Assembly: GCF_004138335.1 (NCBI RefSeq)
Contig: NZ_RYFW01000001.1
Coordinates: 3,121,244 to 3,185,243 of the forward strand
Reading direction: 5' to 3'
From: Peristeroidobacter agariperforans
GTDB lineage: Bacteria > Pseudomonadota > Gammaproteobacteria > Steroidobacterales > Steroidobacteraceae
DNA length: 64,000 nt
The notes under the pieces: model-generated
What the model was told of the DNA's origin: nothing
Database searches by the model: none
Seen by the model: only the letters and a program-made list of their open reading frames with translations
Shown here: in pieces, positions 51,841 to 64,000 of the stretch
Layout of the letters: each line of letters opens with the position of its first letter
Numbering within the stretch: the stretch's first letter is position 1
Program-made: the position numbers and the translations under genes

Positions 51841-54759
51841 ATGCCTACACGCAGTGTGCGATGGCGACGGGGTTCGTGGCTCGCGGCCTCGAGCGTAGCG
51901 CTGTTCGCTAATACCGGCCTTGCCCAGAATCAGAGCGCGGGCGAGCTGGAGGAAGTGGTGGTCACCGGCGTGCGCGCCGCTCAGCAGGCTGCCATCGATA
52001 TCAAGCGCGACTCGCTGCAGATCGTCGATGCAATTTCCGCTGAAGACATCGGCAAATTGCCCGACGTCACCATCTCCGATTCCCTGCAACGCATCCCCGG
52101 CATCCAGATTCGCCGCGACGCCGGCGAAGGCAGTCAGATTGCGGTGCGCGGCTTGCCGCAAGTGTCCACGTTGCTCAACGGCGAGCAGTTTCTCGGCGCC
52201 AACTCCATCACCACCGTACAACCTAACTTCACCGACGTACCCTCGCAGCTGTTTGCGGGGGCGAATGTATATAAGACCGCCACGTCCGGCTTGCTCAACA
52301 GTGGCTTGACCGGCACCGTCGATCTACGCACCCGCCGCCCCTTCGATCTGCCGCAAGGCCTCACCGCGTCGGCTGCGGTTGAAGGCACGTACGGCGACGG
52401 CGCCGAAGAGCTCGATCCGCAGGGCAATCTGCTGGTCGCCTGGAACAACGATCGTTTCGGCGCGCTGGTCTCGGTGGCGTATTCCAACGTCAACCTGGCG
52501 AATTACTACAGCGGCATGCAAGGCGATCAAGGCTGGAGCGGACGCCCCAGTGAGGGCGGCAATTGGCCCGGCGACGTGAATGGCGATGTGAACGGCGACG
52601 GCGATACCGACGACATGATCGTTTCCTATCAGGGGCACACGGCGTTCAATCGTTTCACCGAGCGCGACCGCATCGGCCTGAACGCCTCCTTCCAGGCGCG
52701 CATCACGGATGCCGTGCAGCTGACGGCCGATGCCTTCTACACCGATCAGGAACAGTATGTTCGCACTGCCGGCATGGCCGCCGAAGACAAGTGGCAGCGA
52801 TGGGAATGGTTCACGCCATTGTCTTCGCGAGGCAGCGGCGCGATGATCGACGATCGCGAGCTCATCCTGGTCGATCAGTTCCTGCTGGACACGAGGCGCC
52901 TGAAGTCGTTCTCGCAGGTCGCGCGTACCGATGCGAAATCGCAGAACTTCAACCTGGAGCTGAGCTTCGACAACGGCGGAAAGTTCACCGGCAGCGCGCG
53001 CGCCATCCTGGCGGACGCCGAGCAGAACATCGTCAACAGCTACGCGGACATCGATCTTTCCAACGGCAGCCAGTGGGGTATTCAGAACAACTATTATCCT
53101 GGCGGCACGCAGAATCCTTATCCGAATGGCTACGCCGGCTTCCCGCAGATCACCGTGGACTATCGCGGCGAGCACGTGCGCTTCTCGGGCATTCCGGACA
53201 TCGTCAACAACCTCGATGCCTACTCGATCGGCGCTCTGTCCTCTGAGAACAATTTCGACCGCGATGCCGACATGACTGCATTCCGGCTGGACGGCAGTTA
53301 CGAGTTCACGGACAAGTTCGCGCTCGACGCCGGTGTTCGCTACAGCGAGCGGGAAACCAACCAGCTCGGCTACGACTATCTCGCGCCGTTCTACGGTAGT
53401 GCTGCCTCGAACGGCAGCGGATGTTTGGTGAAATGGAAGGCCACCGACGTCGTGCTGGGCGGCGGCGGCATAAACGGCGCGTGCACCGCGGGTGATGCGG
53501 GTGGCTTCTACACGGCGCTGGGCCGCATGCCGCTGTCCTCGTTTGGAAACAACGTGATCCGGGTGACCGACTATGGCGACGCGCAGGGTGTGCCGCCCGT
53601 GTACGTGCTGGACCCCGAAGCGATGGACGACCCGCTCGCGTTCCACAACGGCCTGTTCCCCGGCAACGTAAAAGTGATGAATCCCGGCAACTCTTTCGGC
53701 GTGGACGTGGATCAAACGACCGCCTATCTGCAGGGAAGGTTGAACGGCGGCGACGACGTGCCGTACTCGGCGAACATCGGCCTGCGCATGGTCAAGACCA
53801 GGCTGAACGTGGTCCAGAACAATGTCGGCGCGCCGCAGCCGTACGGTGCGGCAAATATGGATGCCGGCGATGTGGTTACCGATCGCGAGTTCAACGACTA
53901 CCTGCCGTCGCTGAATTTCACGTTCGATCTGAGCGACTCCGTCAAGTTGCGCATGGGCTATTCGAAGACCATGACGCTGCTGGATCTGGAGCAGTGGGGC
54001 GGTGCGTTGACGCCTTCTTATGCGATCTCGAACGCCGAGGGTGGACGCTTCGTGATCGTTGGCGCCAACTCCAACGGCAATCCGGAGCTCGATCCGTGGC
54101 GCTCGAAGAACTTCGACGGCTCGATCGAATGGTATTTGAACGACCAGACGATGCTGGCCGCGGCGTTGTTCCACATCGAGGTCGACAGTTTCATCGAGCG
54201 TGGCACGGTGCCGATGGCGTTGCCCGATCAGGACGGCGTCGTGCGGCGTACGGTCAACGTGCTGACGAACGTTCAGGGCGAGGGCGGCACGCTGGAGGGC
54301 GTGGAGCTCTCGGCGAAACACGCGTTCTCGGAGCTGCCGGGCATCTGGAGTAACTTCGGTGTGGACGCCAACTACACCTACTCGCCTAGCGATTCCGGGC
54401 GTACCGACATTGCCGGCCAAAAGCTGCCGTTCCCGAGCAATTCCAAGCACCAGACCAATTTCGTGTTGTGGTTCGAGAGCGACCGCTTGCAAGCGCGTAT
54501 CGCTCACAACTACCGCAGCAAGCGAGCCGAGGCGTTCAATCAGATCTGGGGCGCCGAAGGACTCACGGTGTACCAGTCGTCCACGAGCTATATCGACGCC
54601 TCAGTGAGCTATGACGTCACGCCGAGCTTCACGGCGTATCTGCAGGGGCTCAATCTGACCAACGAATACGAGAACTATTATTTTCAGTGGGAAAGTCAGA
54701 AGGCGTACCAGTTCGGATATGAGCGACGGTTCATTGCCGGCCTCCGCGGCAAGTTCTGA
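51841..54759 (+). CDS. TonB-dependent receptor
   Basis: A 972-aa outer-membrane receptor with a signal peptide ending TGLAQ. A TonB-box-like ELEEVVVTG lies at about 36-44, the plug is VDAISAEDIGKLPDVTISDSLQRIPGIQIRRD and VRGLPQVSTLLNG, and the barrel ends in GLRGKF. The length and plug type fit carbohydrate receptors of Xanthomonas/Caulobacter. No anti-sigma signalling domain is present. As part of the ROK locus it probably imports manno-oligosaccharides or a mannose-containing glycan. A strong hairpin follows. Confidence 0.95.
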   Translation: MPTRSVRWRRGSWLAASSVALFANTGLAQNQSAGELEEVVVTGVRAAQQAAIDIKRDSLQIVDAISAEDIGKLPDVTISDSLQRIPGIQIRRDAGEGSQIAVRGLPQVSTLLNGEQFLGANSITTVQPNFTDVPSQLFAGANVYKTATSGLLNSGLTGTVDLRTRRPFDLPQGLTASAAVEGTYGDGAEELDPQGNLLVAWNNDRFGALVSVAYSNVNLANYYSGMQGDQGWSGRPSEGGNWPGDVNGDVNGDGDTDDMIVSYQGHTAFNRFTERDRIGLNASFQARITDAVQLTADAFYTDQEQYVRTAGMAAEDKWQRWEWFTPLSSRGSGAMIDDRELILVDQFLLDTRRLKSFSQVARTDAKSQNFNLELSFDNGGKFTGSARAILADAEQNIVNSYADIDLSNGSQWGIQNNYYPGGTQNPYPNGYAGFPQITVDYRGEHVRFSGIPDIVNNLDAYSIGALSSENNFDRDADMTAFRLDGSYEFTDKFALDAGVRYSERETNQLGYDYLAPFYGSAASNGSGCLVKWKATDVVLGGGGINGACTAGDAGGFYTALGRMPLSSFGNNVIRVTDYGDAQGVPPVYVLDPEAMDDPLAFHNGLFPGNVKVMNPGNSFGVDVDQTTAYLQGRLNGGDDVPYSANIGLRMVKTRLNVVQNNVGAPQPYGAANMDAGDVVTDREFNDYLPSLNFTFDLSDSVKLRMGYSKTMTLLDLEQWGGALTPSYAISNAEGGRFVIVGANSNGNPELDPWRSKNFDGSIEWYLNDQTMLAAALFHIEVDSFIERGTVPMALPDQDGVVRRTVNVLTNVQGEGGTLEGVELSAKHAFSELPGIWSNFGVDANYTYSPSDSGRTDIAGQKLPFPSNSKHQTNFVLWFESDRLQARIAHNYRSKRAEAFNQIWGAEGLTVYQSSTSYIDASVSYDVTPSFTAYLQGLNLTNEYENYYFQWESQKAYQFGYERRFIAGLRGKF

Positions 54760-54773
54760 TCGGTAGCGATGCG

Positions 54774-54813
54774 CCGACGTGCGGTGCCCGGATCGGCGGG
54801 CATCGCACGTCGG
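54774..54813 (+). terminator. Strong hairpin after the TonB receptor
   Basis: CCGACGTGCGGTGCCC and GGGCATCGCACGTCGG pair over 16 positions with one G-U and an 8-nt loop, 15 nt after the stop. A short TTCCATT follows instead of a T-run. Confidence 0.75.
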
Positions 54814-54929
54814 TTCCATTCAAGCTTGGTCGATCCGGGTCCGACTATGTACCATGGGGCCGGGGTTCGAGCGAGCTGGCCTCGGCGGCGCGCAGCCCGT
54901 ACTCATTCATAAAGATTACGGAAAATCAC

Positions 54930-57359
54930 ATGCGCCAGTCCGTCTCAGCGGTCTGTCTTCTCGTGCTGCTTAGTTCCTGCGGTGGGGGCGGCGGCGGTGG
55001 CGGTAGCCCGGCCCCCTCACCCCCGCCTTCGTCACCACAGCCGCCGGGTCCTCCGCCGACCACGTTCGTGGTCACGCTTACGCCGAGCACCACGATTGCG
55101 TCCTATGGCGAGGCGATCTCGCTCTTTTACTCATCCAATGATGCCACTTCCTGCGAGCTCCGCAGCGACGATCCGGACGACAGTAATCCGCTGCATGCTC
55201 CATTCGTGAGCTCGACGCTGAACCGACGGATCTATCGCACTACGACGTTCACCTACCGTTGCACCGATAGAAATAGCGCTGCCACCCTCACGCGTACAGC
55301 GACGATAGCGGTGAGCACGCCGGCGCTGCGCTTCGCCGCTTCCGACATCGGCGTCAACGACGTTGCCTGGGATCGCAATCACCAGGTGATGTATCTCGCA
55401 CTCGGCGCCAGATCGTCCGTTGCGCCCAACTCCATCGTCGCTTTCGACCCGGTGACCGGCGCCTTGTCTGGCTCGGCGTTTGCCGGCAGCGAGCCGAACA
55501 CGATTGCCGTGTCGGACGATGGTTCGAAGCTTTATGTCGGCTTCCGCAGCTCGAACACGGTCAGCCGCTTCTCGGTGCCAGCACTGACGCGTGACTTCAC
55601 GGCGCCGATTCCGATGAACTCCGCTGGCACCAACTCGGGACATCCGCAGTTCGCGCTGGACATCGCAGCCGCACCCGGCGCGCCCGGCAAATTCGCCGTC
55701 TCCCTGCAGACCTTCGCGCGGATGATCGTTTACGACGGCCAGAGTCCGATGCTCGCTCCCCCCGGCCAGCTGGGCCCGGAGATCCGCCAGCCGGGCGAAG
55801 TACTGGCGTGGGCGGACTCGAACACGGTGCTGGCGCTATATGATTTTGGTTGGGGAGCGACGCTCGCGCGTTACGACACCGGCAGCGTCACAGTGACTCC
55901 GCAGGGCTCGACTACGGTCAACAATCGCGTCTTCGGAATGCTGGCCAGCGACGCCGGTCGAATCTATACGAACTGCGGCCACGTGATCGATGCAACGACC
56001 CTGCAGGCATTGCCGTCATTCGCACGTTCCTGTCCAGAAACGTCGCCATACACGAACGCCCAGGTCGCGACCGATTCGGCCAACAATCGGGTCTTCTTTG
56101 CCGAGCGGCTGGAAGAAGCGGTCGATGCCAGCATCCTCTATAAGATCGATGTCTATCGCGAGGACACGCGCGAGCTGCTGCACACTGCGCGCCTTCCTTT
56201 GTCTCTCGCTCGGATTCCACTGGGCAGCAAGATCACCAACATGATCCGCTTTGGCGCCGACGGCCTGGCGATGACCACCTCGGACGGGCAGTTGCTCATC
56301 GTCTATGGAGAGTTCGTGGCAGCCGGCGGTACAAACCTCGTGCGCGTCGTGCCTGGCGAACCAACGGGCGGGTACTACCGGGCCGATCTCGTTCAATTCA
56401 CGTCGGTGCTGCCACGCGCCGTGGACCTCGCGTGGGATGCACAACGCTCGCAGCTGTACGTTGCCGTTGCACAGGACGCTGCTGCTCACGCCGGGCAGAT
56501 CGCGATATTCGATCCTCAGCGCCTGGACACACCGAGCTATGTCGCGCGGCCCACTCCTGTGCACGCAATCGAGGTGACCGATGACGGTCAGTTCCTGTAC
56601 GTGACGGGCACGGATTCGTTCGAGCGTCTGCGGCTGCCGACGTTTGCGTCCGAAGCGCTTGTGAGCGGTGTGGGCGGTGCGTGGCCGGCTGGTTTCCTGC
56701 GCGCCGCACCCGGCAGGCCTCTGACCGTGGCAGTGGGACCGGTGATCTACGACGACATCACGCCTCGCGGCGTGCTGTCCGGCGGGTCCATGCAGCCCGC
56801 CTGGGGTGAGAGCGCCGATCGGTTCTACGTGTTTGATTCGGAGGGCAGTGGCTTCTGGATCGATAGCGCCGATACCAGCAATGGCGGCATTACACCGCTA
56901 TGGCACTACGACAACATTTTCAGCAGTGTGCATCCATTTCCGTTCCATACCGGATTCACACAGTCAGGAAGTTTGCTCTACAGCGACACGGGCGTGGTGT
57001 TCGATCCCGAGGCCGGCATCGTAACGGGGATATTCGCGCTCGGACCGCTCAGCGGCCACGGTGTCGTGAGCGTGCCGTACTCGATGGCCTTTGCTACGCC
57101 TGCATGGGGGCCCGTCGCCATCGACGCTGCACGCAATCGCGCCTATGTGGCGAGCTGCGTTGGCTATACGAATCAAGATGATTGCGGTCTCAATTTTCTG
57201 CAGGTCTTCGACACACGCACGTATGCGCCACTCATGATCTCTCCACTGGATGTTACCGGGCGGGTACGCAAGTTGATTCGCGTGAATGAGGTGGATCTCG
57301 CCGCCATCGCATTCGATGGACGCGTCATCTACATGCCCAATCCGGATTCGGTCGACTAG
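54930..57359 (+). CDS. Large lipoprotein, beta-propeller-like, unknown function
   Basis: An 809-aa lipoprotein: lipobox LSSC at residues 15-18, then an eight-glycine run and a proline linker (SPAPSPPPSSPQPPG). An Ig-like domain follows (TTFVVTLTPSTTIASYGEAISLFY, with a Cys pair). The rest is a YVTN/WD-type propeller (about 135-805) with repeats such as TIAVSDDGSKLYVGFRSSNTVSRF and AIEVTDDGQFLYVTGTDS, ending VIYMPNPDSVD. It is 170 nt downstream of the TonB receptor and could help bind glycan at the surface, or be separate after the hairpin. Confidence 0.8.
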   Translation: MRQSVSAVCLLVLLSSCGGGGGGGGSPAPSPPPSSPQPPGPPPTTFVVTLTPSTTIASYGEAISLFYSSNDATSCELRSDDPDDSNPLHAPFVSSTLNRRIYRTTTFTYRCTDRNSAATLTRTATIAVSTPALRFAASDIGVNDVAWDRNHQVMYLALGARSSVAPNSIVAFDPVTGALSGSAFAGSEPNTIAVSDDGSKLYVGFRSSNTVSRFSVPALTRDFTAPIPMNSAGTNSGHPQFALDIAAAPGAPGKFAVSLQTFARMIVYDGQSPMLAPPGQLGPEIRQPGEVLAWADSNTVLALYDFGWGATLARYDTGSVTVTPQGSTTVNNRVFGMLASDAGRIYTNCGHVIDATTLQALPSFARSCPETSPYTNAQVATDSANNRVFFAERLEEAVDASILYKIDVYREDTRELLHTARLPLSLARIPLGSKITNMIRFGADGLAMTTSDGQLLIVYGEFVAAGGTNLVRVVPGEPTGGYYRADLVQFTSVLPRAVDLAWDAQRSQLYVAVAQDAAAHAGQIAIFDPQRLDTPSYVARPTPVHAIEVTDDGQFLYVTGTDSFERLRLPTFASEALVSGVGGAWPAGFLRAAPGRPLTVAVGPVIYDDITPRGVLSGGSMQPAWGESADRFYVFDSEGSGFWIDSADTSNGGITPLWHYDNIFSSVHPFPFHTGFTQSGSLLYSDTGVVFDPEAGIVTGIFALGPLSGHGVVSVPYSMAFATPAWGPVAIDAARNRAYVASCVGYTNQDDCGLNFLQVFDTRTYAPLMISPLDVTGRVRKLIRVNEVDLAAIAFDGRVIYMPNPDSVD

Positions 57360-57487
57360 CGCAGATCGGGTAGTTTTTGGCCTGCTGCGGATCGATCTTT
57401 CATCGGCTCGGCGGCACCAGGTGACCTCTTCGGGACTGCCGGCGCCGGTCTCGTGCGCTAAACCGGTCGACGCATAGGCCGCTTTCC

Positions 57488-57525
57488 GCCGATGGGATTG
57501 CGCGGATCGGCAAGATTCTGCCGAT
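57488..57525. promoter_or_regulatory. Composite sigma-54 activator site, copy 1 (before kgtP-like gene)
   Basis: GCCGAT (57488-57493), a 12-nt spacer, then ATCGGCA-AGATTC-TGCCGAT (57506-57525), a perfect 7-bp inverted repeat. The centre is about 107 nt before the -12 GC of the sigma-54 promoter, a usual place for an activator site. The same arrangement recurs at 62382-62420. The likely binder is the NtrC-type regulator at 60987-62366. Confidence 0.65.
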
Positions 57526-57554
57526 TGCTCTGCAAGTTGCCCCGCCGCTGCAGT

Positions 57555-57576
57555 GTGAGTATTCGAAAATACTCAC
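57555..57576. promoter_or_regulatory. 22-bp palindrome before the kgtP-like gene
   Basis: Arms GTGAGTATT and AATACTCAC flank CGAA, 9 bp perfect each. It lies between the activator site and the sigma-54 promoter, centred about 57 nt before the -12. It has no counterpart before the DUF1592 gene. It could be a second regulator's site or a repressor operator. Confidence 0.5.
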
Positions 57577-57608
57577 GTCCCGACTGCGACGTCTGGCCTT
57601 TAGATGCG

Positions 57609-57624
57609 TGGCATGGGGATTGCA
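57609..57624 (+). promoter_or_regulatory. Sigma-54 promoter for the kgtP-like gene
   Basis: TGGCATGGGGATTGCA, with GG and GC separated by 10 nt as needed for RpoN; one mismatch from TGGCAC. It lies 45 nt before the ATG at 57669. Confidence 0.75.
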
Positions 57625-57668
57625 ACCTTGCTGGCACAGACGACGTAATCAGCGCGGTATCACAAAAA

Positions 57669-59015
57669 ATGGGACAAATTGAGCTGGCGGTCGATGCCGA
57701 CATTGCGAAAGCGGTGAAAGTTGCGCCCCTCGACGCTGCGGACATGCGTCGGCGTATCAAGGCGATCTTCATCGGATCGGTAGGCAACCTGGTCGAGTGG
57801 TACGACTTCTACGCCTATGCGGCCTTCGCGCTGTACTTCGCGCACCTGTTCTTCCCGGGCGAGAACGTCGTCGTTCAGCAGCTGAGCGCTGCGCTGCTGT
57901 TCGCGTTCGGCTTCATCGTCCGTCCGCTCGGCGGCATGCTGTTCGGACATCTGGCCGACCACTATGGCAGGCGCACGGCGCTCACGCTGTCGGTGCTGCT
58001 GATGTGTTTCGGCTCGCTGATGATCGCCGTGACGCCGACCTATGCCTCGATCGGCATCGTCGCGCCGGTGATGCTGTTCGTTGCACGCCTGATCCAGGGG
58101 CTGAGCCTCGGCGGTGAGTACGGCACCAGCGCCACCTATCTGAGCGAGATCGCGCACGAGAATCATCGCGGCTTCTTCGCCAGTTTCCAGTATGTGACGC
58201 TCATCGGCGGCCAGTTGCTGGCCATCCTGGTGCTGCTGCTGTTACAGAAGGTGTTCCTGACTCACGAACAGTTGATGGATTGGGGCTGGCGAATTCCATT
58301 CGCGATCGGCGCCTGTCTGGCGATCGTTGCGGCCGTCATGCGCCGTGACTTGCACGAGACCGATGCGTTCGTCGAAGCGAGGAAAGCCGCTCCGCGTGAA
58401 AGCTCGACCAAGGCGCTGATGAAATATCCGCGCGAGGTGATGCTCGTCGTCGGCCTGACCATGGGCGGCACGGCGGCGTTCTACACGTACACCACTTATA
58501 TGCAGAAGTTCCTGAAGCTCTCGGTCAATCTCACTGATGACCAGACGACCATGGTGACGGCCGGATCGTTGCTGTTCGCCATGCTGCTGCAACCGATCTA
58601 TGGGGCGATTTCCGACAAGATCGGCCGCAAGTGGCTGCTGATCGGCTTCGGCGTGGCCGGTACGCTGTTTACCATTCCACTGCTGACAGCATTGCAGGCG
58701 GCCCGGGATCCACTTCAGGCGTTCTTCCTGATTGCCCTCGCATGGATAATTGTGTCAGGTTACACATCGATAAATGCAGTGGTGAAAGCGGAGCTATTCC
58801 CCACGCGGGTCCGTGCAACTGGCGTCGGACTTCCCTATGCAATCACAGTGTCCATCTTCGGCGGCACCGCCGAGTCCATCGGGCTGTGGTTCAAATCGAT
58901 CGGTCGCGAGCACTGGTTCTACTATTACTTGACCGGCTGTATCGCTACGTCGCTCGTGGTGTACCTGCTCATGCGCGACACCAAGAAGACCTCCGCGATG
59001 AACCGGCACGACTGA
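57669..59015 (+). CDS. kgtP: MHS-family transporter, alpha-ketoglutarate permease (KgtP)-like
   Basis: A 448-aa inner-membrane H+ symporter. The ATG at 57669 (MGQIELAVDADIAKAV) lies downstream of the sigma-54 promoter; the frame is open upstream but contains that promoter. KgtP features are strong: VGNLVEWYDFYAYAAFALYF, RPLGGMLFGHLADHYGRR, LIQGLSLGGEYGTSATYLSEIA, SFQYVTLIGGQLLAILV, GWRIPFAIGA, FYTYTTYMQKFLK and VKAELFPTRVRATGVGLPYA. It should take up 2-oxoglutarate or a related dicarboxylate. The two genes downstream encode the MifSR/DctBD-like pair that probably controls it. Confidence 0.9.
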   Translation: MGQIELAVDADIAKAVKVAPLDAADMRRRIKAIFIGSVGNLVEWYDFYAYAAFALYFAHLFFPGENVVVQQLSAALLFAFGFIVRPLGGMLFGHLADHYGRRTALTLSVLLMCFGSLMIAVTPTYASIGIVAPVMLFVARLIQGLSLGGEYGTSATYLSEIAHENHRGFFASFQYVTLIGGQLLAILVLLLLQKVFLTHEQLMDWGWRIPFAIGACLAIVAAVMRRDLHETDAFVEARKAAPRESSTKALMKYPREVMLVVGLTMGGTAAFYTYTTYMQKFLKLSVNLTDDQTTMVTAGSLLFAMLLQPIYGAISDKIGRKWLLIGFGVAGTLFTIPLLTALQAARDPLQAFFLIALAWIIVSGYTSINAVVKAELFPTRVRATGVGLPYAITVSIFGGTAESIGLWFKSIGREHWFYYYLTGCIATSLVVYLLMRDTKKTSAMNRHD

Positions 59016-59115
59016 CAGACGCATCCGCACATTGCTGCTAACATCGCCAAGAGGTCCGACGCACGTATCACGTTGGGTAAACAACTAGCCGAGAAAATCC
59101 GCACGACCCTCGCTC

Positions 59116-60990
59116 ATGAAGTCCGCGGCCAAGACCTGGCAGTCTCTTCGCGTGCGCCGCGCAGCGGTGGTCATGCTCATCGCGGCGATGATCGCCGGAT
59201 CCGGATGGCTTGCTTATGAGCTGGCGCTGCAGTCCGGCTTCGGCAGCTTGCAGCGTACGGCGAACGATCGGCTGTCGCTGCTTCAGCTCACGCTCGACGC
59301 CACGATCGAGCGATTCCGCTATCTGCCGACTGCGCTCGCCCAGGCGGCGCCGATCGCGGCCGTCTATGAGCATCCCGAGTCGCCGCAGGCCAGAGAGGCC
59401 GCGAATAAATATCTGAAATCGTTGAACGAGGCAGCCGGCTCGTCCGACATCTATGTGCTCGATCACAGCGGCGTCGCGCTGGCGGCGAGCAACTATCTCG
59501 ATAAACATAATTTCATCGGCAGGAACTACGCGTTCCGCCCGTACTTCACCGAAGCGCTCAACAACGACGAAGGCCGTTACTACGCTGTCGGTGCAACCAC
59601 CGGAAAGCCCGGCTATTTTCTCTGGCATTCGGCCAACGAGAACGCCGCCCACACGGGAGTAGGCGTCGCGGTCGTGAAAGTGGACCTGCACCCGTTGCAG
59701 AACGAATGGAAGAGCACCGGCGCGCTGGTCGCCATGCTCGATCCGAACGGCGTGATCTTCCTGACGAGCCGCCCGACCTGGCAGTACCGGCCGATCTCAC
59801 ACCTGTCGGAATCACAGTTGCGGCTGCTGCGTGATACGCGTCAATACGGTCGTGACATCGACGATCTGAATCCTCTATTCGTTGGCGAGCGGACCGATCA
59901 CGGCCAGAAGGTGGTGCGCATCAACGAACCCAAGGAGCACACCAGCCATGAGTACGTCGTGTTCAGTCAGCCCGTGCCGAAGCACGGTTGGAACATGGTG
60001 GTCCTGTTTCCTTTGCGAGCCGTGCAGGAGCAGGCTGCGGTGGTTGCCGCCGCTGTGATGCTGGCAGTGCTCGCCGCCTTGCTGATCTACCTCGTCACGC
60101 ATCAGCGCCGGCATATCGTGCGCGCCAAACTCAACGCGCATCACATCCTGGAACAGCGGGTGACCGAGCGCACGGCTGAGCTGGCTGCGACGAATTCGCT
60201 GCTGTCGGCGCAGATCAATGAACGAATCAGGACCGAGCGGGACCTGCGTCGAGCGCAGGACAACCTCGTGCACGCAACCAAGATGGCAAGCCTCGGGCAG
60301 GCACTGGCGGGCGTTGCCCACGAGATCAACCAGTCGCTCGCCGCGATGACGACCTACATTGCCGGGGCGCGCGTGCTACTCGATAGAAACGACAAGGACT
60401 CGGCCCTGTCGAATCTGAAACTCGTCTCGGCAATCGTCACCCGCATGGGGGCGCTGACCCAGCACCTGAAGACGTTTGCGCGCAAGGACACTGAATCCAA
60501 GCAGGCGACGGACATCACTGCCGCCATTCGCTACGCACTCAGCCTCGTCGACTATCGCGTCGGAGAGCAGGACGTGACCTTGCACCTCTCGGTTCCCGAG
60601 CAGCCGGTGTACGTGATCGGCAACGCCGTTCGCCTGGAACAGGTCATCGTCAACCTGATCTCGAATGCGCTCGACGCCATGCGCGAGCGGCCGCAGCGGC
60701 AGCTGACGATCGAGCTGGAGCGCGAAGAACGGCGCGCGAGCCTCAAGGTCTCCGACACCGGTCGGGGCATCGCTCGGGAACACCTCAGCAGCGTGTTCGA
60801 TCCTTTCTACACCACCAAGGATGTTGGCCAGGGGCTCGGCCTCGGGCTGTCGATCTCCTACGGAATCATCCAGGACATGGGCGGCGAGATTTCTGTCGAG
60901 AGCACCTTGGATCGAGGCACGACGTTTCGTATTGTCGTGCCGCTCGCCGGCATCCTGGCCCCTCACACCGCTGTTGCAATTCAGACATGA
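59116..60990 (+). CDS. DctB/MifS-type sensor histidine kinase
   Basis: A 624-aa kinase. Helix 1 (16-36) and helix 2 (about 313-333, VVAAAVMLAVLAALLIYLV) bracket a double-PDC (Cache) periplasmic domain of about 275 residues (DIYVLDHSGVALAASNY, GRNYAFRPYFTEAL, GYFLWHSANENAAHTGVGVAVVKVDL). A coiled coil precedes HisKA with VAHEINQSLAAMTTY, then HATPase with NLISNALDAM, DTGRGI and GLGLGLSISYGI. The usual Pro after NQ is Ser here. Such kinases sense C4-dicarboxylates or 2-oxoglutarate. The stop overlaps the regulator start (ATGA). Confidence 0.9.
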   Translation: MKSAAKTWQSLRVRRAAVVMLIAAMIAGSGWLAYELALQSGFGSLQRTANDRLSLLQLTLDATIERFRYLPTALAQAAPIAAVYEHPESPQAREAANKYLKSLNEAAGSSDIYVLDHSGVALAASNYLDKHNFIGRNYAFRPYFTEALNNDEGRYYAVGATTGKPGYFLWHSANENAAHTGVGVAVVKVDLHPLQNEWKSTGALVAMLDPNGVIFLTSRPTWQYRPISHLSESQLRLLRDTRQYGRDIDDLNPLFVGERTDHGQKVVRINEPKEHTSHEYVVFSQPVPKHGWNMVVLFPLRAVQEQAAVVAAAVMLAVLAALLIYLVTHQRRHIVRAKLNAHHILEQRVTERTAELAATNSLLSAQINERIRTERDLRRAQDNLVHATKMASLGQALAGVAHEINQSLAAMTTYIAGARVLLDRNDKDSALSNLKLVSAIVTRMGALTQHLKTFARKDTESKQATDITAAIRYALSLVDYRVGEQDVTLHLSVPEQPVYVIGNAVRLEQVIVNLISNALDAMRERPQRQLTIELEREERRASLKVSDTGRGIAREHLSSVFDPFYTTKDVGQGLGLGLSISYGIIQDMGGEISVESTLDRGTTFRIVVPLAGILAPHTAVAIQT

Positions 60991-62366
60991 ATCCCACAGT
61001 CCTCGTTGTCGATGATGAAGAGCAGGTACGCCACTCGATCGCGCAATGGCTGGAGCTCGGCGGTCACACTGTCGAGACGGCGGCAGATGCGGATGCCGCG
61101 CTGGCTGCGATCCGGCGCAGGGCGCCCAAGGTTGTACTGACGGATTTCAAGATGCCGCGCAAATCAGGCATGGACCTGATGCGAGAACTGCAGCGTTTCG
61201 AGCCCGATATTCCTGTCGTTCTGCTCACCGCACATGGCGACGTGCCACTCGCGGTCGCGGCGATGCGCGAGGGCGCCTACGATTTTCTACAGAAGCCGTA
61301 TGTGCCTGAGCATCTATCGGCAGTCGTTGCGCGAGCGATCGAACAACGTCGCTTGAAACACGAACTGCAGCAGCTGTCCGGACGCGTTGCCGCCCACGAA
61401 GGATTGCAGGCTCACATCGTCGGCGCTTCGGCGGCGATCGCTCGGGTTCGCGACATGGTGGCGGAACTGTGCCACCACGATCCCAACGTGATCATTACCG
61501 GACAGACCGGCACGGGCAAGGAAGTGGTTGCCCGCGCCTTACACGACTTCGGACCGCGTGCGAAGTCGCCCTTCGTCGCCATCAATTGCGCGGCCCTGCC
61601 CGAAGAGTTGTTCGAAAGCGAATTGTTCGGCCACGAGGCGGGCGCATTCACCGGGGCGCGCACCGCGCGGGTCGGGAAGTTCGAGTTCGCGCACGGCGGT
61701 ACGCTGCTGCTCGATGAAATCGAGAGCATGCCGCTGTCGTTACAGGCGAAGTTGTTGCGCGTCCTGCAGGAAAGGGTGGTCGAACGCGTCGGCTCGAACA
61801 AGAGCGTGGCGGTCAACGTGCGGGTCATCGCTGCAACCAAATACGATCTCGAGGAACAGGGCCGGCTCGGCCGGTTCCGTCCCGATCTTTACTATCGACT
61901 GTCAGGCGCGGAAATTCCGTTGCCCCCGCTCAAGGCGCGCGACGGAGACATTCTGTTGTTGTTCGAACACTTTGCGACCTGCGCAGCTTCGATTGCAGGA
62001 CAGCCGCACCGCTCGTTGTCCTCATCCGACGTCGAGGCATTGCTCACCCACAGCTGGCCCGGCAACGTGCGGGAATTGAAAAGCGTTGCCGAGCGTTATG
62101 CGCTGGGATTGAAATCGATGGGCCGAACGGTGCCGGAGATCCTGGGCAAGGCGACGCAGAGCCCGACGGTCGTCGGCTCGGCGCTGGCGGATCGGGTAGC
62201 CGCTTACGAGCGGCAACTGATCGAGTCCGCCCTGAAGGATCATGGCGGTTCGATCAGCACCGTCATCGAGGTGCTGGGGATTCCACGGCGTACGTTGAAT
62301 GAAAAGATGGTCAAGTACGGATTGATCAGGCCAGGGCGCGATGCCGGTGCGCACGGCCACGGCTGA
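60987..62366 (+). CDS. NtrC-family sigma-54 response regulator (DctD/MifR-type)
   Basis: A 459-aa activator: receiver (VLVVDDEEQVRHS, Asp in VLTDFKMPRKSG, Lys in DFLQKPYVPE), AAA+ domain with Walker A GQTGTGKE, the GAFTGA loop intact for sigma-54 contact, Walker B GGTLLLDEIE, and a Fis-type HTH at the C-terminus (GSISTVIEVLGIPRRTLNEKMVKYGL). It is joined to the kinase by a 4-nt overlap. The two sigma-54 promoters on either side of the pair, each with the same upstream composite site, are the natural targets. Confidence 0.94.
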   Translation: MNPTVLVVDDEEQVRHSIAQWLELGGHTVETAADADAALAAIRRRAPKVVLTDFKMPRKSGMDLMRELQRFEPDIPVVLLTAHGDVPLAVAAMREGAYDFLQKPYVPEHLSAVVARAIEQRRLKHELQQLSGRVAAHEGLQAHIVGASAAIARVRDMVAELCHHDPNVIITGQTGTGKEVVARALHDFGPRAKSPFVAINCAALPEELFESELFGHEAGAFTGARTARVGKFEFAHGGTLLLDEIESMPLSLQAKLLRVLQERVVERVGSNKSVAVNVRVIAATKYDLEEQGRLGRFRPDLYYRLSGAEIPLPPLKARDGDILLLFEHFATCAASIAGQPHRSLSSSDVEALLTHSWPGNVRELKSVAERYALGLKSMGRTVPEILGKATQSPTVVGSALADRVAAYERQLIESALKDHGGSISTVIEVLGIPRRTLNEKMVKYGLIRPGRDAGAHGHG

Positions 62367-62381
62367 CATGGGCGGTTTTTG

Positions 62382-62420
62382 GCCGATGCTCAAATTATGA
62401 ATCGGCAGATTTCCGCTGAT
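62382..62420. promoter_or_regulatory. Composite sigma-54 activator site, copy 2 (before DUF1592 gene)
   Basis: GCCGAT (62382-62387), a 13-nt spacer, then ATCGGCA-GATTTC-CGCTGAT (62401-62420), 15 of 20 identical to the dyad in copy 1. A further ATCGGC overlaps its end (62419-62424). It lies about 139 nt before the -12 of the downstream sigma-54 promoter. Confidence 0.65.
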
Positions 62421-62535
62421 CGGCGCCGCTAGCGCGCCACGAGTCGTCAGTACCTCCCAAAAACAGCCTCCACGACGCCAAGAAAAACCCTCTACAACAA
62501 GGTATTTACGTAGCACGCGGCGTGCAACGGAAAAG

Positions 62536-62551
62536 TGGCACGTCGATTGCT
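62536..62551 (+). promoter_or_regulatory. Consensus sigma-54 promoter for the DUF1592 gene
   Basis: TGGCACGTCGATTGCT matches TGGCACG-N4-TTGCW with no mismatch. It is 47 nt before the ATG at 62598. A GCACGC-G-GCGTGC dyad sits just upstream (62513-62525). Confidence 0.85.
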
Positions 62552-62597: not shown

Positions 62598-64000
62598 ATG
62601 CGTTTGATGTTGAGTGGATCTGCAGCGGGATTGCTAGCCACCATCGCATTAGCGAGTTATTCCGGAACATCAACTGCCTCGCAAAGTGCAGCGACTTCCG
62701 ACCAGGCTCAAGAAACAAAAGCGCCCCTGCAGGAGCCGCAGGACACGGCGTCTCTGAGCCGGCTGCGATTGCTCAGCGAGGATCAGTACCTCAACAGCGT
62801 CCGTTATGTTTTCGGGCCCGACGTCGCGCCCGAGCCTCATTTTCCTCCGGCGCAGCGTCGCGACGGTCTGCTGGCGCTCGGCTCTTCGATTACAGGCGTG
62901 ACCACGGCCCAGCTGGAGCTGTATCAAAAATCTGCGGTGACGATTGCCAACACGGTGATCGATCCGAAATATCGTGCATTTCTGATCACCTGCAAGCCGA
63001 AGAACGAGAAGAAGGCGGACAAGGCCTGCGCCACCCAGTTCCTGAAGGAGAAAGGACGGCTGCTGCACCGTCGGCCGATGACGCAGGAAGAGCTCGACGT
63101 GTTCGTCACCCAGGCCAACAAGTCGGCGAACGATCTGAAAGATTTCTACACGGGCATCGGCGTTGCGCTCGAAGCCATGCTGGTCAGCCCCAACGTGTTG
63201 TTTGTCGCTGAGACGACGGAGCCGGATCCCGAACGTCCGGGGCGCCAGCGTCTCGATGCTTTTTCTCTCGCCACACGCATGTCGCTATTCCTGTGGGATG
63301 CAGTGCCTGACGACAACCTGCTGAAGGCAGCCGAGAGCGGCGAGATACAGACGCCCGAGGGCCGCGCACGCGTCGTCGATATGATGCTTTCCAGCCGTCG
63401 CCTCGACGCCGGCGTACGCGCCTTCTTCGACGACATGTTCGGATTCGACGATTTCAATTCGCTCTCCAAGGACCCGGCGACTTATCCGCAGTTCACGGGC
63501 CAGGTGGCGCAGGATGCGCGCGAGCAGACGTTGCGAACCATCGTCGATCATCTGGTCAACAAGCGCGGCGACTACCGCGATCTCTTTACAACTCGCGAAA
63601 CGTTTATTTCGCCGGCACTCGCCATGCTCTACGGCGAGCCCGCGCCAGCCGGTTGGACGCCCTACACCGAAGCGCCCGATAGTCCCCGCGCCGGCCTGTT
63701 GAGCCAGGTCAGCTTTCTTGCACTCCACTCGCACCCCACGCGCTCTTCTCCGACGTTGCGCGGCAAAGCGCTGCGCGAGACCTTGTTGTGCCAGCGCGTG
63801 CCGCCGCCGCCGCCCAATGTCGATTTTTCGGCGGTCGACAATCCGGACTCGCCGTTCGCGACCCAGCGTGAGCGCGTCGCGTTCCATCTGAAGAACCCGG
63901 TCTGCGCCGGCTGCCACAAGATCACCGACCCGATGGGACTTGCGCTGGAAAACTTCGACAGCAGCGGTCGCTTTCGCGAGGAAGAGCGGGGCACCAAGAT
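62598..64000 (+). CDS. Secreted DUF1592/DUF1588-type protein with CxxCH, cut by right edge
   Basis: The frame is open for 467 codons to the window end, so the C-terminus is missing. GAGGAGGGGG precedes the ATG; a signal peptide (MRLMLSGSAAGLLATIALASYSG) follows. The body shows the DUF1592 group: LRLLSEDQYLNSVRYVFG (DUF1587-like), GIGVALEAMLVSPNVLFVAE, LDAFSLATRMSLFLWDAVPDD, VRAFFDDMFGFDDF, PRAGLLSQVSFLALHSHPTRSSPTLRGKALRETLLC and the DUF1588 segment with VCAGCHKITDPMG, a heme-type CxxCH. These domains are known from planctomycetes and some proteobacteria; no enzyme role is set. A DUF1552 partner would be expected to the right. Confidence 0.9.
   Translation, partial: MRLMLSGSAAGLLATIALASYSGTSTASQSAATSDQAQETKAPLQEPQDTASLSRLRLLSEDQYLNSVRYVFGPDVAPEPHFPPAQRRDGLLALGSSITGVTTAQLELYQKSAVTIANTVIDPKYRAFLITCKPKNEKKADKACATQFLKEKGRLLHRRPMTQEELDVFVTQANKSANDLKDFYTGIGVALEAMLVSPNVLFVAETTEPDPERPGRQRLDAFSLATRMSLFLWDAVPDDNLLKAAESGEIQTPEGRARVVDMMLSSRRLDAGVRAFFDDMFGFDDFNSLSKDPATYPQFTGQVAQDAREQTLRTIVDHLVNKRGDYRDLFTTRETFISPALAMLYGEPAPAGWTPYTEAPDSPRAGLLSQVSFLALHSHPTRSSPTLRGKALRETLLCQRVPPPPPNVDFSAVDNPDSPFATQRERVAFHLKNPVCAGCHKITDPMGLALENFDSSGRFREEERGTK

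Follow-up and report, generated by a model that had tools for sequence, protein, structure and literature searches.

Paired dyads before predicted sigma-54 promoters of a kgtP-like gene, a DUF1592 gene run and two TonB receptor genes in the cluster of a MifS/MifR-like gene pair

Genes and promoters at the locus

The stretch of DNA analyzed here, referred to as the window, comprises 64 kb of the 7.65-Mb genome of Peristeroidobacter agariperforans (C9:3121244-3185243). Its 3' part carries a gene encoding a kgtP-like carrier, the genes of a sensor kinase and a response regulator, and a DUF1592-family gene (Table 1). The element under study is an operator of two dyads that stands 5' of a sigma-54 (RpoN) promoter core at both the kgtP-like gene and the DUF1592 gene, and also at two TonB receptor genes beyond the window. 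Searching with the kgtP-like protein revealed PRK10406 (2-oxoglutarate permease KgtP) as its best match. In a sequence search of solved structures, the sensor region of the kinase matched the DctB structures 3by9, 2zbb, and 3e4o, with which the segment FRPYF...GRYYAVGATTG..GYF aligned; its dCache_1 match (29.8 bits) lay under the cut-off of 45. The gene of this DctB-like periplasmic sensor kinase adjoins that of the NtrC-family regulator, which places the pair among MifSR-type systems. No forward terminator-like hairpin was found in the 100-nt gap between the kgtP-like gene and the kinase gene. The DUF1592 protein scored 104 bits in Pfam (gathering threshold, 23.3), and the neighboring DUF1552 protein scored 159 bits (threshold, 30). 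The DUF1592 gene is the first of a same-strand run that continues with genes for the DUF1552 protein, a secreted-repeat lipoprotein, a 371-aa protein, two cytochromes c', and a c-type cytochrome; this run may form one putative transcript.

Table 1. Features of the locus (window positions unless given for C9; MAG, metagenome-assembled genome)
Feature	Position	Strand	Remarks
Promoter-distal 20-bp dyad ATAGGCCGCTTTCCGCCGAT, 5' of kgtP-like gene	57474..57493	+	Right arm is GCCGAT, 57488-57493; near-identical in S. agaridevorans and MAG kgtP promoters
Promoter-proximal 20-bp dyad ATCGGCAAGATTCTGCCGAT, 5' of kgtP-like gene	57506..57525	+	Identical in S. agaridevorans and MAG kgtP promoters
Extra palindrome GTGAGTATTCGAAAATACTCAC	57555..57576	+	Starts 54 nt 5' of the kgtP sigma-54 core; TonB receptor genes are preceded by degenerate copies
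Sigma-54 -24/-12 core TGGCATGGGGATTGCA, kgtP side	57609..57624	+	
kgtP-like MFS carrier gene, 447 aa	57672..59015	+	PRK10406, 489 bits; TIGR00883, 407 bits
MifS/DctB-like sensor kinase gene, 624 aa	59116..60990	+	HATPase_c; sensor region matches DctB structures
MifR-like NtrC-family response regulator gene, 459 aa	60987..62366	+	Receiver, sigma-54 AAA+, Fis-type helix-turn-helix, helix PRRTLNEKM; 4-nt overlap with kinase gene
Promoter-distal dyad ATGGGCGGTTTTTGGCCGAT, 5' of DUF1592 gene	62368..62387	+	Right arm is GCCGAT, 62382-62387
Promoter-proximal dyad ATCGGCAGATTTCCGCTGAT, 5' of DUF1592 gene	62401..62420	+	
Sigma-54 -24/-12 core TGGCACGTCGATTGCT, DUF1592 side	62536..62551	+	
DUF1592-family gene	62598..64000, cut by window end; full, C9 3183841-3185544, 567 aa	+	DUF1587/1595/1592/1588/1585; CxxCH by eye
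TonB receptor gene 1 operator	Beyond window; dyads, C9 3192316 and 3192348; core, 3192452-3192467		
TonB receptor gene 2 operator	Beyond window; dyads, C9 3197702 (degenerate) and 3197735; core, 3197837-3197852		

The original prediction had described a sigma-54 promoter at each of the two window sites, preceded by a GCCGAT element and a dyad. This architecture and its coordinates were confirmed at both sites, and the distances of 107 and 139 nt given from dyad to -12 agree with the 106.5 nt (kgtP) and 138.5 nt (DUF1592) measured from the center of the proximal dyad to the -12 GC. The GCCGAT element is present at both promoters, 12 nt (kgtP) or 13 nt (DUF1592) before the proximal dyad. Its reading as a lone half-site was rejected because it is the right arm of a further 20-bp dyad upstream (ATAGGCCGCTTTCCGCCGAT and ATGGGCGGTTTTTGGCCGAT). 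The two dyads of a pair are 32 bp (kgtP) or 33 bp (DUF1592) apart, i.e., about three helical turns. A weight matrix scored the four window dyads at 22.5 to 27.2, these four being part of its training set, and the next window site at 13.0.

Two units had been predicted. Both were confirmed; the count was incomplete, as four units carry the operator and the DUF1592 gene heads a run of several genes. The two further operators, at distances of 8.7 and 14.1 kb from that of DUF1592, had been missed because they lie past the window edge. Three of the four promoters have two strong dyads. The pattern TGGCACG-N4-TTGCW was matched with one and zero mismatches at the two window promoters, and TGGCAYR-N4-TTGCW was matched without mismatch at all four. 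The sigma-54 cores are near-perfect, and RpoN dependence is predicted from them.

The palindrome GTGAGTATTCGAAAATACTCAC was detected by a pattern test 54 to 55 nt 5' of the sigma-54 core in five of nine promoters, namely, those of kgtP and the first TonB gene in this genome and in S. agaridevorans and that of kgtP in the MAG. Related letters stand at the second TonB gene here and at the MAG TonB gene. The palindrome may be the site of a second regulator that splits the regulon.

Confinement of the operator to the gene cluster

First-order random sequence (20 Mb, searched on both strands) served to estimate the chance expectation. The dyad ATCGGCA-N6-YGCYGAT gave two matches there. The composite operator was absent from the random sequence and occurs twice in the 64-kb window. 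The core pattern TGGCAY-N5-TTGCW has two matches in the window, one at each of these promoters, versus 47 in the random sequence. At two or fewer mismatches, the single dyad matched 20 times in the window. In the actual genome, the single dyad is non-specific by itself; these promoters are distinguished by the pairing and by the sigma-54 core. An exact search of the whole genome for ATMGGC-N8-GCYGAT followed by TGGC-N7-TTGC at 50 to 80, 80 to 110, or 110 to 140 nt revealed the four cluster promoters only, and the reversed-pattern controls gave none. A stricter paired pattern retrieved three of the four cluster promoters and no other match in the genome.

Conservation in relatives

At an E value of 1e-60, only 2 of 150 genomes of the family, this genome and G115, contained the kinase. 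A scan of named contigs with the kinase revealed S. agaridevorans (93%) and a gammaproteobacterial MAG (90%) together with two distant matches. In S. agaridevorans, the kgtP, DUF1592, and TonB promoters all carry both dyads and the core. In the MAG, the operator likewise precedes kgtP, DUF1592, and one TonB receptor gene; at the DUF1592 promoter, the distal dyad ATCGGCAGTTTTTGGCCGAT is stronger than the proximal one. All three genomes encode the regulator helix PRRTLNEKM. The paired pattern occurs in 2 of 14 genomes of the genus, exactly the two that have the kinase, and was not found in the other 12, where the kinase is also missing. The proposal that the two flanking genes belong to one regulon is supported by the paired dyads kept 5' of kgtP, DUF1592, and a TonB gene in the two further genomes found to have a close kinase and by the confinement of the exact operator plus core to the cluster. 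A lack of dyad conservation in orthologous intergenic regions had been named as refuting; the dyads are conserved there, over close relatives only.

At a fourth promoter of S. agaridevorans (joined loci L012-L014, at about 33066), the proximal dyad and the sigma-54 core look intact, but their TonB receptor gene is missing. The DNA 3' of this orphan promoter matches the 3' flank of the second TonB gene of P. agariperforans, so the receptor gene has apparently been lost, and the promoter may be a relic.

Association of the recognition helix with the operator type

Loci around kinase homologues were collected from 369 genomes of the class and 398 of the phylum, taken from the tops of the lists and not at random. 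The 56 loci comprised 12 regions for the 21 rows of one list, 40 from a longer list, and 4 named loci; they were scanned with a matrix built only from the sites of P. agariperforans, S. agaridevorans, and the MAG. Several loci share a genus or family and are not independent. A helix class, PRRT-N.K, was defined in this analysis after the first examples had been seen. A partner dyad at 32 to 33 or 43 bp was present at 12 of 21 PRRT-N loci versus 0 of 35 others (Fisher, 5e-7), the spacing limit having been set afterwards and the counts having been read off the table by hand with partners at 31 to 34 or 43 to 44 bp. Under the script's own rule of 28 to 46 bp, the counts were 12/21 versus 3/35 (Fisher, 1.3e-4), the three being weak (5.3 to 6.3). 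A best site of at least 15 was found at 13/21 versus 7/35 loci (Mann-Whitney p, 0.0014), a weaker separation than that by pairing. Loci of other helix classes, which we take to be those named DctD and AauR, carry other dyads near sigma-54 cores, e.g., TGTGCGGATTTCCGCACA and TCGTTCGGATTTCCGAACGA.

Thirteen PRRT-N sites (the 12 with partners plus L155; L045 was left out) were followed to the next gene. In all 13 cases, this is a gene for a carrier or a solute-binding protein: a kgtP-like gene in five (L120, L124, L126, L132, and L134), a gene of an NMT1_3 solute-binding protein, presumably of the TAXI kind, in six, and a DctP solute-binding protein gene in two. No TonB receptor or DUF1592 gene directly follows any of these sites, and against this set the TonB receptors and DUF1592 are unusual targets. 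At L122, ATCGGCAATTTATTGCCGAT and ATCGGCACAAACTTGCCGAT lie 33 bp apart and are close to the operator studied here; a DctM carrier gene is nearby. At two DctP-type promoters (L046, 10897-10959, and L140, 8234), the dyads have inner arms GGCC or GCC and a 43-bp spacing, i.e., four turns; the regulator helices are PRRTMNNKM and PRRTLNNKM. These loci are perhaps a sub-class.

A search of 18 genomes with the kgtP-like protein revealed nine with an orthologue of 60 to 62% identity, five of which lie near a like kinase by coordinates. At six of the nine orthologue promoters, the best matrix sites scored 12.5 to 25.4 and the second sites, 31 to 33 bp away, scored 1.4 to 13.6, the matrix having included some sites of these genomes, with the L160-L162 sites and the second dyads excluded. 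Promoters of paralogues (about 50% identity; n = 9) reached 8.2 at most. The regulators of kgtP-adjoining loci carry the helix PRRTFNEKM or PRRTLNEKM. The kinase/regulator pair had been described as DctBD/MifSR-like; the helix PRRTLNEKM, whose class accompanies kgtP genes that have similar dyads, indicates that it is MifSR-like rather than DctBD-like.

Proposed mechanism and alternatives

In this family, a DctB-like sensor acts through a receiver on an AAA+ activator of RpoN polymerase. From the operators and promoters, the gene order, the conservation in close relatives, the confinement to the cluster, and the association of operator and helix, we infer regulator binding, RpoN dependence, a signal, and an uptake pathway as follows. 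It is highly probable that a MifS/MifR-type system senses a periplasmic carboxylate, binds the paired dyads, and drives RpoN-dependent expression of kgtP, the DUF1592 run, and the two TonB genes. The signal would be a small carboxylate, a dicarboxylate such as 2-oxoglutarate being the likeliest class. The phosphorylated regulator would bind two 20-bp dyads about three turns apart, roughly 80 to 150 nt 5' of the sigma-54 promoters, where the pair may seed oligomer assembly. Four clustered units would then be transcribed with RpoN: kgtP, the DUF1592-DUF1552-lipoprotein-cytochrome run, and the two TonB receptor genes. Transcription of kgtP perhaps continues through the two genes of the pair, and positive feedback would result. 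A substrate would cross the outer membrane and be processed by the secreted redox proteins, and the kgtP-like carrier would import an acid product. A bolder version, which we put forward tentatively and regard as rather doubtful, is that MifSR was recruited as a master switch for TonB uptake and periplasmic oxidation by the DUF1592, DUF1552, and cytochrome proteins, with a released C4-C5 acid that enters by the kgtP-like carrier and induces the regulon. If true, this version would give the PSD/DUF1592 set a physiological role.

Several observations weigh against control of all four units by the MifS/MifR-type pair. Eight of the 12 mismatch-free single dyads of the genome lie outside the cluster and lack the promoter arrangement; four lie inside. 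The spacing between dyad and core at the DUF1592 promoter exceeds that at the other promoters, and the extra palindrome was not found 5' of DUF1592. The kgtP-like protein remains under the NCBIfam cut-offs (489 versus 550 bits for PRK10406 and 407 versus 443 bits for TIGR00883). Among the 56 loci, 7 of the 35 with other helices have a single site scoring at least 15, including a PRRTLGDKL-helix locus, classed as other, with a single site at 21.5. Conversely, 9 of the 21 PRRT-N loci have no partner dyad in the DNA scanned around the kinase; in three of the genomes concerned (G629, G633, and G712), a similar dyad stands at a kgtP gene in another part of the genome. In P. aeruginosa-type kgtP promoters, the second dyad is weak. 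Genomes in which a close kinase occurs (90 to 93% identity) belong to near relatives, so that the conservation spans a short divergence and says little on the age of the system.

The identity of the signal is the point at which an alternative has most weight. The operators may be real and sigma-54 dependent and the signal still be another acid, derived from the substrate of the TonB, DUF1592, and DUF1552 proteins and imported by the carrier, rather than 2-oxoglutarate. This is quite possible: the carrier falls under the curated cut-offs, the highest identity of the kinase to any match listed from the class and phylum searches is 41%, and the occurrence of the PRRT-N operator before six NMT1_3 and two DctP genes shows that more than one carrier type goes with the class. 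The 60 to 62% identity of the carrier to kgtP-like genes, of which five adjoin a similar kinase gene, and the alignment of the sensor segment with DctB structures speak against it.

The identity of the activator is less in doubt. The genome is rich in two-component genes (the kinase query gave 125 candidate places), and the dyads could in principle be bound by a different NtrC-family activator, the adjacent pair lying between its targets by chance. The association between helix and operator, the co-occurrence of kinase and operator in 2 of 14 genomes of the genus, and the position of the first DUF1592 dyad (62368), which a single base separates from the regulator stop codon, make this improbable. 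It is still less probable that the sites represent one promoter duplicated along with a neighboring gene, so that not all of them need be in use. Such a history would account for the kgtP and two TonB promoters, which align throughout from dyads to core, for the two TonB receptors, which are 77% identical to each other, and for the promoter that S. agaridevorans retains without a receptor gene. The DUF1592 promoter, however, shares mainly the dyads and core with the others and is conserved in three genomes, and the composite did not arise in 20 Mb of random sequence.

Neighboring genes and other DUF1592 sets

The region just 5' of kgtP (51841-57359) encodes a TonB receptor of family TIGR01782 and a protein of 809 aa whose start resembles that of a lipoprotein. 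The matrix scan of this region revealed no site above 10.7, and both genes are seemingly outside the regulon. Farther along the contig, next to the regulon (C9 3201014-3211768; L008), lies a paralogous set with genes for a PaaX-family regulator, a third TonB receptor, DUF1592, DUF1552, a lipoprotein, a 357-aa protein, and a creatininase-family protein. The operator was not found at this second DUF1592/DUF1552 set (C9 3205355-3211768).

Cytochrome-like proteins with DUF1587-1595 domains occur in 10 of the 14 genomes of the genus and in other phyla. A scan for DUF1592 gave 33 matches in these 10 genomes, and 30 had loci that were scanned. General control of DUF1592 genes by the operator was rejected: among the 30, dyad and sigma-54 core were found only at the copies of this genome and S. 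agaridevorans, in loci that reach 1,500 bases to either side of the domain match, so that promoters of the longest proteins may fall outside. A sequence search of solved structures gave one match for DUF1592 (E 0.71) and none for DUF1552, and viral contigs searched with the DUF1592 protein yielded nothing useful.

Comparison with known systems

The domain content of the DUF1592 protein and its DUF1552 neighbor resemble planctomycete-type PSD/PSCyt sets (DUF1587/1588/1592/1595); unlike in those sets, the genes here are preceded by a sigma-54 operator and have TonB receptor genes as neighbors. The available passages of PMC5615132 state that nothing is known of the functions of the domain families of the DUF1592 set, and the literature passages on PSD/DUF1592 sets that were examined do not address their regulation. 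A literature search that covered only a minority of subscription papers and no bioRxiv preprints revealed no MifSR-type system in control of DUF1592 or TonB receptor genes, and no overlap was found between the DUF1592-set and MifR literature. No literature was found on DUF1592 with DUF1552 or on planctomycete-specific cytochromes with TonB and sigma-54.

The pair shares with DctB-DctD a sensor region that matches DctB structures (2zbb and 3e4o) and the logic of upstream dyads plus a sigma-54 core. It differs in its helix (PRRTLNEKM, not PRKT-YDK) and in its dyad arms (ATCGGC, not TGTGCGG). Assignment to DctD was rejected because loci with the DctD-type helix PRKT-Y carry TGTGCGG-N4-CCGCACA, from which the operator arms and helix here differ.

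The closest likeness is to MifS-MifR/PA5530 of P. aeruginosa. According to the available passages of PMC4482717, expression of PA5530 in 2-oxoglutarate needs MifS and MifR and is lower in mifSR mutants, and PA5530 expressed from another promoter restores growth of an rpoN mutant. As in that system, the kinase and NtrC-family regulator genes overlap in one operon, and a kgtP-type target has a -24/-12 promoter. The motif GATCGGCGGATTTCC of the PA5530 promoter, as given in those passages, corresponds to the left part of the dyad 5' of the kgtP orthologues and resembles the dyads here. The same passages report the motif GATCGGCGGATt/gTCC as common to the mifS and PA5530 promoters and say that its role remains unexplained. 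As printed there, this motif coincides with the left part of the dyad that precedes the L160 and L162 carriers; going by gene order and by the motif in print, the genomes of family f162 are, at a guess, Pseudomonas-like. Unlike in the P. aeruginosa system, kgtP lies directly 5' of the pair here, all promoters but one of the four have two strong dyads, and the operator is also carried by the DUF1592/DUF1552/cytochrome run and two TonB genes, which the passages of PMC4482717 do not name as targets. MifSR control of a kgtP-type gene was already known; a system of this kind next to TonB receptors and a DUF1592/DUF1552/cytochrome run is new. The operator proposed for MifR-class regulators would give a role to the printed mifS/PA5530 motif, and the association of helix and operator could serve to predict regulons in this regulator family. 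An operator common to a carboxylate carrier and two TonB receptors also provides a testable clue to the function of the DUF1592 set.

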